From Verrucomicrobiota bacterium (GTDB taxonomy: Bacteria; Verrucomicrobiota; Verrucomicrobiia; Verrucomicrobiales; Akkermansiaceae): a DNA stretch of 52,488 bases. The stretch's first letter is position 1, and every line of letters begins with the position of its first letter. Location of the stretch: contig RDZR01000039.1 of NCBI GenBank assembly GCA_004294095.1, positions 1 to 52,488 on the forward strand, read 5' to 3'. This document shows, piece after piece, positions 5,607 through 8,315 of this stretch. Below the pieces are notes generated by a model, which made no database searches, was not told the DNA's origin, and was given only the letters and a program-made list of their open reading frames with translations. The position numbers and the translations under genes are program-made.

Positions 5607-5951
5607 TCACGGGACCACAGTTGCGACGCTTACATCAGCCTCAGCGGATGCCTCCACCTCCTCGACCACATCCAACGAGATCGGTCTTAAGGCCGATCCA
5701 TTTTCTTGAATTTTTTTACGAATCACAAATCGGTTGAGCAATTGATCCATCCGCATATCGACCATCCGCATATCGAGCCGGTATTGATCGATCCGCCGCT
5801 CGATGGCATCGGTTTGGCGTTTGGCATCAATCTGACGATTTTTGTAATACGCGTGCAATACACCTCCAGATCCCGCTAATAACATGCCGAGACCTAAAGC
5901 GATGATCGTGCTTAAGCGAATTTTTGGCTGTTCGTTGCGGCGATGATTCAT
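5607..5951 (-). CDS. ftsL: FtsL-like cell division protein
   Basis: Small bitopic protein of 114 residues. It has a basic N-terminus (MNHRRNEQPKIRLST), a membrane segment at about 14-34, then a charged heptad-like region (about 38-85) able to form a coiled coil. The C-terminus is acidic and Val-rich. Sequence is poorly conserved in this family, so the call rests on size, topology and position between rsmH and ftsI. In known systems FtsL forms a complex with FtsB/FtsQ that recruits and activates FtsI/FtsW. Its start overlaps the rsmH stop by 4 nt (ATGA). Confidence 0.8.
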   Translation of the reverse strand: MNHRRNEQPKIRLSTIIALGLGMLLAGSGGVLHAYYKNRQIDAKRQTDAIERRIDQYRLDMRMVDMRMDQLLNRFVIRKKIQENGSALRPISLDVVEEVEASAEADVSVATVVP

Positions 5952-7414
5952 GAGGCGAGGTCTAAAAGCTGAGCAACCCGTAGCTTAGCGCTGCGGGCTC
6001 GTGGGTTCATTCTGATTTCCTGTGGTGTGGGCGCGATGGCTTTCCTTGCCAGCCATTGAAATTGATATTGAGGATTCGGCCGAGGTTCAGGCCAGCCTGG
6101 CTCATCCAGCAGCGCCGTCGTGCGGTGCTTGAGAAATCGCTTCACCATGCGGTCTTCCAAACTGTGAAAGGTGATGATCAGCAGCCGCCCGCCGGGTTTG
6201 AGAATCCGAGGCACGGCATCTAACACTTCACGCAAGGAGGCCAGCTCGTCATTCACCGCCATGCGGATGGCTTGGAATGTTTTTGTCGCCGGGTGTGTGC
6301 GTCCGTGGCGGCCGGTGGTTCGCTCGACACAATCTGCGAGTTCTAAAGTTGTAGTAAATGGTTTTGAATGACGCGCTTTGACGATTGCCGCAGCGATTTT
6401 CCGTGCGCGTGATTCTTCGCCATACTCAAAAAGAATACTGGTCAACTCAGCCTCGCTCCAGTGGTTCACCACATCCGCCGCCGTCACCGACTGCTTGGGG
6501 CTCATTCGCATGTCCAATGGTCCTTCGCGTTGGAAGGAAAATCCACGGCTCGCCAAATCTAACTGGCGTGAAGAAACTCCCAAATCTAACAGTAATCCAT
6601 CAGCCCGCGATCCATCTGTTAGAAGTGCGGAGTCGGCTATTTCAGAAAAATTGCCTTCCCATGTGGAAAAATTTTCACCGTAAGCTGCAAGTCTAGCTGA
6701 AGCGAAGTTGAGTGCTTCCGGATCGCGATCCACGCCCGTGACTCGCGCTCCTGCGCGTAAGAATAATTCGCTATGGCCGCCGCCGCCCAGGGTGCCATCA
6801 ATAATCCAATTTCCCTCGGTGGGCTTCATCCAATCGACGACTTCTTCCGGGAAAACCGGCAAGTGGTAAAATGAAGCGTCTTCATTTTTTACTGAAAAAT
6901 TTACAGGAGCCTGCGCTGACAACCAGCCAGGAGCAGCGCAGGCATCCGGATAAATGGCAATCTGCCGTGCTGTCCCGAGCGCGATAGATTGCTTTGGAAA
7001 ATGAGGTGAGTTCAGACCCTGCACTGACAACCAGCCAGGAGCAGTGCAGGGTTCTGATCGATTCGTTGCCAGTGGTGCTGTCCCGAGCGTCACTGGCGGT
7101 GAAATGAAAGTGTTTCCAGATGGGCGCACAGACAACCAGCCAGGAGCTGTGCGCACCATCTTTTGAAACCACGCTTGAAGCTCTGTCCCGAGAGACTTCA
7201 TGCGGGGGGATAGGAAAGGGTGCAATGGATGCTTAGCCGACAACCAGCCAGGAGCGGTGGGCAGTGCCATTGCGGATGCGGTCAAGTTTCCTGTCCCGAG
7301 GAAACTTTGGCATCTCGATGAAATAGGTGCCCACTCCAGAACACCAGCGAAAGCGGACCGTGCCGCTGAATTGCGGACCGCTGAGTGGTTTGGAGTGGGT
7401 TGGGTGAACAACAT
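5948..7414 (-). CDS. rsmH: RsmH (MraW), 16S rRNA C1402 N4-methyltransferase, with unusual N-terminal repeat extension
   Basis: SAM-dependent methyltransferase of the 30S subunit. The conserved enzyme begins around position 6,871 (YHLPVFPEEVVDW, then DGTLGGGGHSELFL for SAM binding) and runs about 307 residues, a normal RsmH length, with LLLDLGVSSRQLD, FQAIRMAVNDEL and HSLEDRMVKRFL. No ATG, GTG or TTG lies in frame just before the core. The frame stays open upstream through four repeats reading LGT...APGWLS back to ATG at 7414, the first ATG downstream of the mraZ stop; an earlier ATG at 7528 lies inside mraZ. Later in-frame ATGs occur at 7270, 7201 and 7159. Translation therefore either includes the repeats or uses an unrecognised start. 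The core identity is certain; the start is not. Confidence 0.9.
   Translation of the reverse strand: MLFTQPTPNHSAVRNSAARSAFAGVLEWAPISSRCQSFLGTGNLTASAMALPTAPGWLSAKHPLHPFLSPRMKSLGTELQAWFQKMVRTAPGWLSVRPSGNTFISPPVTLGTAPLATNRSEPCTAPGWLSVQGLNSPHFPKQSIALGTARQIAIYPDACAAPGWLSAQAPVNFSVKNEDASFYHLPVFPEEVVDWMKPTEGNWIIDGTLGGGGHSELFLRAGARVTGVDRDPEALNFASARLAAYGENFSTWEGNFSEIADSALLTDGSRADGLLLDLGVSSRQLDLASRGFSFQREGPLDMRMSPKQSVTAADVVNHWSEAELTSILFEYGEESRARKIAAAIVKARHSKPFTTTLELADCVERTTGRHGRTHPATKTFQAIRMAVNDELASLREVLDAVPRILKPGGRLLIITFHSLEDRMVKRFLKHRTTALLDEPGWPEPRPNPQYQFQWLARKAIAPTPQEIRMNPRARSAKLRVAQLLDLAS
6868..6888. other. A/T-rich hairpin at the edge of the rsmH core
   Basis: The nine bases AAAATGAAG (6868-6876) pair perfectly with CTTCATTTT (6880-6888) around the loop CGT. 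On the plus strand more T residues follow. On the minus strand, the rsmH sense, the hairpin sits between the repeat array and the conserved methyltransferase core. It looks like a weak intrinsic-terminator or attenuator structure, but lacks a GC-rich stem, so its role is only a guess. Confidence 0.4.
6909..7307 (+). repeat. Four-unit array of paired hairpins with constant loops (candidate structured RNA)
   Basis: Hairpin A has the constant loop ACAACCAGCCAGGAG at 6919, 7027, 7132 and 7240. Hairpin B has the constant loop TGTCCCGA at 6971, 7079, 7184 and 7292. The A-to-B distance is exactly 52 nt in all four units; unit periods are 108, 105 and 108 nt. The stems differ in sequence but keep pairing: A stems GCCTGCGCTG/CAGCGCAGGC, CCCTGCACTG/CAGTGCAGGG, GCGCACAG/CTGTGCGC and a weaker fourth; B stems GCAATCT/AGATTGC, GCCAGTG/CACTGGC, TGAAGCTC/GAG(A)CTTCA and AAGTTTCC/GGAAACTT. 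This covariation indicates selected secondary structure. Non-Watson-Crick pairs are mostly G-T on the plus strand, so plus is given as the likelier structured strand. On the minus strand the array is open in the rsmH frame. Confidence 0.8.
7330..7399. other. Additional stem-structured domain next to the hairpin array
   Basis: CCCACTCCA (7330-7338) is perfectly complementary to TGGAGTGGG (7391-7399). Inside this closing helix, AGCGG-A-CCG (7352-7360) pairs with CGG-A-CCGCT (7374-7382) around an A/A mismatch. The domain abuts the four-unit array and ends about 47 nt from the mraZ stop. It contains neither constant loop, so it may be a separate domain of the same RNA or an independent hairpin after mraZ. 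Confidence 0.5.
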
Positions 7415-7446
7415 GTCTGTCGTTGGTGTGAATCTTAAAAAATTGC

Positions 7447-7902
7447 TTAGTAGATATCGTAGCGGTCTGGAAACAACGGCGCCTCGCGCTCTTTCTCCAT
7501 CATCTCGGCGTGATTGGCCTTGCTCCAAATCTCGAAATACGTTTCGCGGCCTGCGAGAATCACTTCTGCCTCTGGCTCAATCCCGCACAAATCGCTCAGA
7601 TCCTTCGGAATCAGTAATTTGCCTTGCTCGTTGAGCGTTGCCTCGCGGCACAACATCGCAAGTTTCCCCACGTGGTAGTTCTTCTCTTCGATGGAACCCT
7701 CGCCATTTTCCACATTCGAAATCTTTGTCTGATAAGCAGCTTCGGTCAGCACTTTAACAATTGGCCAACCGCGTTTGTTTGAAAACTGCAGGTGAAAGTC
7801 TTCCCCTTTTTCGGTCCGCCAAGCCACAGGGATGGACACCCGATACTTCGGGTCCATCTTGTAGGTCGAAAAACCTTTGCGGCTGACTTTTCCGGTGATC
7901 AT
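7447..7902 (-). CDS. mraZ: MraZ, dcw-cluster transcriptional regulator
   Basis: First gene of the dcw cluster, 151 residues, within the normal range. It has two SpoVT/AbrB-like beta-barrel halves: the first covers MDPKYRVSIPVAWR (about 16-29) and the second VNEQGKLLIPKDL-type sequence (here TLNEQGKLLIPKDL, about 90-103). Known MraZ proteins bind direct TGGGN repeats upstream of their own gene and repress the cluster. I do not see such boxes here. The ATG at 7902-7900 is preceded by a small hairpin in the leader. It is separated from the rsmH core by the hairpin array. Confidence 0.93.
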   Translation of the reverse strand: MITGKVSRKGFSTYKMDPKYRVSIPVAWRTEKGEDFHLQFSNKRGWPIVKVLTEAAYQTKISNVENGEGSIEEKNYHVGKLAMLCREATLNEQGKLLIPKDLSDLCGIEPEAEVILAGRETYFEIWSKANHAEMMEKEREAPLFPDRYDIY

Positions 7903-8016
7903 GAATATTCTTGAGCATTTTTATTGCTCAGACATGATCAAAATACACTCAAACACACTTGTGTCGAGAAAATTATTTTTTAAAAATTATAAACTGATTT
8001 AATACATGATCATCAA
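7903..8016 (-). promoter_or_regulatory. Probable mraZ promoter and leader
   Basis: On the minus strand a TATAAT (7991-7986) lies 19 bp after TTGATG (8016-8011), a plausible sigma-70-like promoter about 85 bp before mraZ. The leader contains a 6-bp hairpin TGAGCA/TGCTCA (7912-7930). CATGATCA, or its complement, occurs at 7896-7903, 7933-7940 and 8005-8012. TTGAGTGT/ACACTCAA form an inverted pair at 8034-8041 and 7945-7952. These repeats could be operator sites. The classic TGGGN MraZ boxes are not seen. Confidence 0.4.
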
Positions 8017-8315
8017 GGGTTTATTAGGTGAACTTGAGTGTGTTTTTGTTTTGCAAAAGTGTCTTGGCCTCGCTTTTTTTAAAATTAAGCATCATAAAAC
8101 AAGTGAGGCAAATTGATGATTTAACTTACCTAACAAATGGCAAGAAGTCCAGCAATAAAGCGAGCTTTGAGCTTACAAAGACCCTATTTTTTGAGGCAAT
8201 TGCAATTTTTACAGAATCGATCCGTATTACTAAAAGGCCTCCCTTCATCTTTGGAAAACTTGCTTAGTTTTTGATTCCCCACTGGAAATTTCTTAAAATC
8301 AACGCATAATGATGG
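8017..8315. other. AT-rich divergent intergenic region
   Basis: This stretch separates the minus-strand dcw cluster from a plus-strand TPR gene. It is visibly more AT-rich than its surroundings and must carry promoter signals for the TPR gene. A 79-codon open frame within it (8028-8267) has no recognisable motif and is not called. No tRNA, repeat or terminator is evident beyond the TTGAGTGT site at 8034. Confidence 0.4.

Follow-up and report, generated by a model that had tools for sequence, protein, structure and literature searches.

RNAs of the CsrB and RsmZ type are built from numerous hairpins whose loops are constant and whose stems vary; they are untranslated and act via CsrA, which is the classical client of such sponges. 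The mraW RNA motif (RF01746) is listed for Actinomycetales and came from a pipeline in which intergenic regions were searched (PMC2864571). Palindromic sequences can also lie within coding regions: the Rickettsia palindromic elements (RPEs) are described as palindromes that lie within genes and are read in frame (PMC10969869), and the PARCEL elements as dyad-symmetric coding repeats that stand in tandem and keep the frame (PMC2996958). The EAR processive-antitermination RNA is described as a cis-acting RNA near the beginning of a long operon, in intergenic sequence of Bacillus (PMC7858274).

The window analysed here, a stretch of 52,488 nucleotides from an Akkermansiaceae genome, contains a four-copy array of alternating hairpins, A and B, that had been noticed in a first-pass annotation and was found as described. 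The A loop ACAACCAGCCAGGAG is present on the plus strand in four exact copies (starts at 6919, 7027, 7132 and 7240, periods of 108, 105 and 108), and each is followed at a distance of 52 nt by the B loop TGTCCCGA (starts at 6971, 7079, 7184 and 7292). With up to 3 mismatches allowed, the window holds 5 A loop matches where 1.09 are expected, a count of 5 was reached in none of 100 shuffles, and in the 3.0 Mb assembly exact copies of the loop occur only at the four array sites. The stems, claimed to be complementary, do differ in sequence from unit to unit and fold, with the exception that the A stem of unit 4 is interrupted. The geometry had been called fixed, which does not extend to the relatives: there the distance from B to A (sense strand) is 39-52 nt and that from A to A is 102-129 nt, or 210-222 nt where one copy was lost or has diverged. 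The coordinates are collected in Table 1.

Table 1. Features of the mraZ-rsmH region of the window
Feature	Position	Strand	Remarks
mraZ	7447..7902	-	Pfam PF02381, E 1.6e-07
mraZ-rsmH spacer	7415..7446	-	32 nt
rsmH (16S rRNA methyltransferase, MraW family)	5948..7414	-	open frame from conserved ATG 7414; 488 aa
RsmH N-terminal extension with array	6869..7414	-	residues 1-182 (about 180); open frame; predicted disordered
Hairpin B unit 4	7284..7307	-	sense loop TCGGGACA 7292-7299; model unit 7223-7316
Hairpin A unit 4	7222..7273	-	sense loop CTCCTGGCTGGTTGT 7240-7254; stem interrupted
Hairpin B unit 3	7176..7200	-	loop 7184-7191; model unit 7115-7208
Hairpin A unit 3	7118..7161	-	loop 7132-7146
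Hairpin B unit 2	7068..7097	-	loop 7079-7086; model unit 7010-7103
Hairpin A unit 2	7012..7057	-	loop 7027-7041
Hairpin B unit 1	6957..6992	-	loop 6971-6978; model unit 6902-6995
Hairpin A unit 1	6906..6947	-	loop 6919-6933
Canonical RsmH core (YHLPVF...)	5951..6868	-	Pfam and AlphaFold2

The array had been placed between mraZ and the rsmH core; it is not intergenic but sits inside the rsmH reading frame and is thus translated sequence. Since this frame is open through the array up to the conserved ATG, the array encodes an N-terminal extension of RsmH, of which Pfam PF01795 covers residues 182-482 (E 4e-102). The start is of the MLFTPP type and lies 32 nt past the mraZ stop; most of the array-bearing relatives that were read have the same type of ATG 24-56 nt past the stop of the ORF found at the place of mraZ (7 nt in L016). 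The leader preceding this ATG in the relatives is CA-rich and, judged by eye, has no evident Shine-Dalgarno site. The array is directly followed by rsmH in all 28 loci of one set, in 16 of the 20 of another and in 3 more. A second RsmH-like gene (36% identity) is present in the genome of the window (G000:C95:28366-29235), and such a gene was also seen in G006 and G010. Upstream of mraZ there are direct decamer repeats, AGTGTGTTTG and AGTGTATTTT (7940-7959, minus strand), and a further copy, GAGTGTGTTT, on the plus strand at about 8033-8046; the repeats resemble MraZ boxes.

Across 27 loci the array has no stop in 3972 codons when read in the rsmH frame; in the remaining five frames there are 71, 67, 113, 52 and 76. 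Moreover, all 133 A-to-A spacings from 51 distinct arrays are divisible by three, the commonest (83/133) being 105 nt, or 35 codons. Locus L025 was left out of both counts owing to an N run, and one of its A-to-A distances, 272 nt across the N-run gap, is no multiple of three; the diverged loops of L074 were left out of the spacing counts. The latter locus, from a draft of 950 contigs (G186), has at a contig end two units that carry diverged loops and do not share the frame of the RsmH core, owing either to a real frameshift or to an assembly error, and is the sole out-of-frame case seen outside an N run. Starts close to the core are scarce: an in-frame ATG within 11 codons of it was found in only 4 of the 27 loci (L011, L015, L019 and L029), L185 and L186 have one about 20 codons ahead, and between the last A loop and the core of the window there is neither ATG nor GTG. 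In some loci, such as L007, L008 and L018, a GTG stands 5 codons ahead of the core and may serve as an internal start. The stop-free frame, the spacing in threes and the scarcity of starts near the core make it very likely that ribosomes, in most species at least, translate the whole array. Translational bypassing was discarded as an explanation, since a bypassed sequence needs to be neither free of stops nor in frame.

The suggestion that the hairpins form a selected structured RNA was supported by strong covariation of the stems and by homologous arrays in relatives. The 100 distinct units were thinned to 61, which come from 23 loci. Their covariation score was 0.461, compared with 0.181 (sd 0.010) after shuffling, and slid controls did not exceed 0.150. 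Two of the outcomes that the first-pass annotation had named as counting against its reading, a lack of homologous arrays and a lack of covariation, are thus contradicted by the data. Paired cells made up 84.2% (67.8% shuffled, 36-45% slid), and double-sided changes were seen in 18 of 22 pairs (14.4 shuffled) and in 251 cells (100 shuffled). Against synonymous-codon shuffles the extension of the window has a structure z of -7.5 and a core segment of equal length -0.7; in the two loci of genus g7 that were tested, structure at the start of the core (-4.0 and -5.6) equals or exceeds that of the extension (-2.8 and -4.5). What marks a cis-regulatory mRNA element, a conserved covarying structure on the mRNA, was found, the strand being assigned with moderate confidence. 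Kissing between A and B loops could by eye involve about 5 bp, and as both loops are near-invariant covariation is uninformative on this point.

Regarding the strand, the loop sequences had been given correctly but for the plus strand, and the evidence moderately favours the minus strand, that is the rsmH mRNA. The better fold is that of the sense RNA for 80 of the 102 A hairpins, and of 98 B hairpins 54 fold better in the sense and 39 in the antisense direction. The G.U pairs of the sense strand outnumber the A.C mismatches by 118 to 39 in A stems and by 133 to 101 in B stems. The bias of the A stems persists after thinning at 80% identity (53 vs 19) and is gone when thinned to below 70% (12 G.U vs 12 A.C, n=22). 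The B hairpins of the window and its unit 4 A hairpin fold better on the opposite, plus strand. An antisense RNA was considered, and the total counts favour sense, though not after strict thinning; the RNA of the array is likely, though not proven, to be the sense strand of rsmH.

The strictly kept frame, and the MLF-type start conserved in most loci, could belong to a functional peptide, with APGWLS and LGT motifs every ~35 residues, in which the palindromes are incidental. The codons of the A loop speak against this. Among 193 distinct loops within 6 mismatches of the consensus (more distant ones were dropped), TTG encodes the Leu in 184, no other Leu codon being used in any loop, and GGC is kept in 185; the Pro codon is CCT in 98 and CCG in 1, and nonsynonymous swaps at this site are common (TCT 48, CAT 19, GCT 8). 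As the synonymous sites stay constant while the amino acids change, it is the nucleotides and not the residues that are kept. In addition, the B loop TCGGGACA is read in a second frame in 14 of 184 copies, lying one base off its usual frame in L007, L008, L012, L017, L023, L030, L032 and L033, where the overall frame is intact. The covarying stems also speak against a protein-level repeat, as does the extension itself, which in the window protein is without a separate Pfam match (E up to 1) and is predicted by AlphaFold2 (input of 17 aligned sequences) to be disordered: pLDDT is below 50 at residues 1-183, with block values of 23-33 across residues 1-180, whereas most blocks of the core lie at 60-93, a stretch near 281-310 excepted.

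Substitution rates agree in part with a functional peptide. In seven related pairs, not all of them independent, pN/pS was 0.76 in the linkers, 0.62 in the hairpins and 0.14 in the core, and pS rose from 0.123 in the hairpins to 0.188 in the linkers and 0.272 in the core. Rates at the three codon positions, from nine pairs, were 0.135/0.128/0.159 for linkers and 0.046/0.023/0.197 for the core. The linker dN/dS of two g7 pairs is 1.0-1.3, a value that the gapless comparison may inflate, and that of five g1 pairs is 0.27-0.66, so that the peptide is not wholly free. As a protein the extension nevertheless appears weakly constrained, and the shape of the RNA appears to matter more than the encoded peptide; a functional peptide with incidental palindromes is held to be improbable.

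Arrays homologous to that of the window were found with a covariance model (R1), a type of search that the first-pass annotation had proposed, in 58 of 190 genomes of the family, 41 of genus g1 and 17 of genus g7; the carriers are a group of Luteolibacter-like bacteria. These include all 41 g1 genomes sampled; G133 (g7, 72% complete) has no R1 match. The two genera are 2 of 16 in the family. With strict filters, by which weak matches may be lost, R1 was found in 23 of 239 genomes of the order (2 of 48 genera) and in 10 of 387 genomes of the phylum (2 of 197 genera sampled). From this limited range, rsmH does not generally need the array. Of 195 family genomes 31 have the exact loop, in a few cases as lone matches in other genera, and the two such loci that were read (L005 and L006) have no adjoining rsmH. 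When named genomes were scanned for the pattern, 37 stretches were obtained, 33 of them in Verrucomicrobiota records, among which are Luteolibacter pohnpeiensis KCTC 22041, a Luteolibacter sp. MAG and several otherwise-named MAGs of the order. The other 4, on contigs of Pantoea or Erwinia (L106, L113, L126 and L132), have paired CTGGCTGGTTGT matches at similar spacing; they are presumably unrelated repeat genes and were left aside on account of the organism.

Tandem arrangement and variable copy number (2 to 8 R1 matches per genome) are also what neutral or selfish palindromes would give, whether as mobile in-frame coding repeats like RPEs or PARCELs or as palindromes kept perfect by template-switch mutation, and in-frame palindromic coding repeats are known (PMC10969869, PMC2996958). 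However, in 54 of the 58 genomes the R1 matches all lie in a single cluster, and no dispersed copies of the array were found among the R1 matches of the 58. In the other four (G030, G120, G149 and G186) the matches are split over two contigs, and in the three checked (all but G120) one contig has the mraZ-like end and the other rsmH, the break thus falling within the array. One cluster per genome and presence in all 41 g1 genomes point to vertical and not scattered inheritance. Template switching, moreover, leaves unexplained why the loops are more conserved than the stems. An origin in neutral or selfish repeats seems improbable.

Hairpins were also found in the rsmH extensions of other genera. 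In genus g11 they are at the same place, with the loop AAGGGACG and stems that resemble those of the B hairpin. Most g11 extensions read (L145-L152 and L088) have two such in-frame hairpins with GC-rich stems, the second directly ahead of the RsmH core and diverged in L151 and L152, and the first followed, by eye, by a T-rich run in several loci. Strong single hairpins, with stem sequences specific to each lineage, are present in short extensions of g9 (L159, L161), g10 (L164), g13 (L089, L158) and g12 (L091). A z of -2.5 or lower against synonymous-codon shuffles was obtained for 15 of 28 rsmH extensions and for 3 of 28 core starts of equal length, two of these three belonging to the g7 loci mentioned above; ten rsmH loci of g3, g8 and g16, whose core was missed by the motif search, do not enter this test. 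Beyond g11 the homology of these hairpins to the array is at most a candidate relationship. Mimicry of, or pairing with, 16S rRNA by the loops was rejected, the longest shared stretches being 6-10 nt and not significant over six tests; the best was the g11 loop AAGGGACGGC (10 nt, equalled in 8 of 300 shuffles). The 16S sequences compared were those of two relatives, since none was found in the assembly of the window.

The reading that we favour, at about even chances, is that of a cis-acting structured RNA carried by the 5' portion of the rsmH mRNA, within translated sequence, as probably a multi-site platform for a putative factor that would tune rsmH. Ribosomes would start at the ATG just after mraZ and would have to cross the array to make RsmH, for which reason stops and frameshifting indels would be purged from it. 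Selection would mainly keep the two hairpin types, with loops fixed and stems free as long as they are complementary. A trans-acting factor that docks is suggested by the constancy of the loops, the freedom of the stems and the number of copies, and a role in cis by confinement to rsmH together with translation through the array, as far as sequence comparison can tell. The loops would be the docking sites, repeated for avidity, of a putative RNA-binding factor (protein or RNA) that would act on the rsmH mRNA and set the expression of rsmH, possibly also of the division genes downstream. Docking would be in competition with translation, since a ribosome that passes over the array would unfold its hairpins. 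The data show homology, covariation, constraint on the loop nucleotides, coding in frame, a weakly constrained peptide and a location at rsmH for each array that was read; a binding factor, the way in which it regulates and an effect that reaches into the operon are inferred.

Instead of serving such a platform, the hairpins may act on transcription, as attenuators relieved by coupled ribosomes or by processive antitermination across the long division operon, like that of EAR in the B. subtilis eps operon. The array lies early in the division cluster, a T-rich tract follows the B hairpins of one type, which are 66 of the 187, and by eye short T runs follow A hairpins in relatives and T-rich runs the g11 hairpins. 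On the other hand the T runs are short, plain terminators do not need invariant loops, and terminator-like sites in the window show no excess (2 vs 1.9 expected), on which count intrinsic terminators were rejected. Attenuation or antitermination is a serious rival of the translated platform, even if we consider it unlikely.

Many near-identical loops on one transcript, up to 8 matches in one genome, could also make the array a trans-acting sponge that titrates a protein or sRNA in step with transcription of the division operon and leaves rsmH itself unaffected. Such a sponge would need neither a single locus nor a coding frame, and the copy number varies between genomes. CsrA was rejected as the partner of the loops: it was absent from the search results in all 33 genomes, the control search being positive in 3 of 14 known genomes, including E. 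coli and B. subtilis, and this makes a sponge of the Csr/Rsm type unlikely. A trans-acting sponge in general is in our opinion improbable.

More tentatively, and with somewhat less confidence than in the platform as such, the array can be seen as one member of a class of translated structural RNAs, in which a platform lies in an ORF, the peptide is largely a by-product and rsmH and the division cluster are coupled to a putative loop-binding factor. A related form could be ancestral in Akkermansiaceae, given that other genera hold strong hairpins of their own in the rsmH extension. With good support, the array exemplifies stronger selection on RNA hairpins than on the peptide within a translated gene segment, here in a conserved rRNA methyltransferase gene at the head of the division cluster. 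A search limited to intergenic sequence would overlook such an element. As Luteolibacter pohnpeiensis KCTC 22041 carries the array, its role is testable by synonymous recoding, and the loops can be used as bait for finding a new RNA-binding factor.

A scan of window positions 6300-8100 with Rfam 15 gave no family above its gathering threshold and no match to RF01746 at E up to 5; the only two matches, to mir-486, are far below the gathering score of that family. No earlier description of the array was found in a literature search whose scope took in few subscription papers, and the translated array in rsmH appears to be without match in Rfam or in the literature found. It has in common with the mraW RNA motif that this too is a structured RNA motif named for mraW (= rsmH), and it differs in being translated, tandem and in Verrucomicrobiota. 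Like EAR it is a cis RNA early in a long operon and unlike EAR it is not intergenic, a possible link being checked by the Rfam scan only. RPEs are scattered over unrelated genes, whereas the array lies in one gene, is inherited vertically and has constant loops and covarying stems; dispersal of the RPE type was not found among the 58 genomes. PARCELs are described as amphipathic repeats of 25 residues with a punctate horizontal distribution (PMC2996958). Judged by spacing and disorder against that description, the array is different, with repeats of mostly 35 codons that are predicted to be disordered and are vertically inherited. From CsrB and RsmZ it is set apart by being translated and by the 33 genomes in which CsrA was not found, and it resembles them in its many hairpins, the loops of which are constant and the stems variable.
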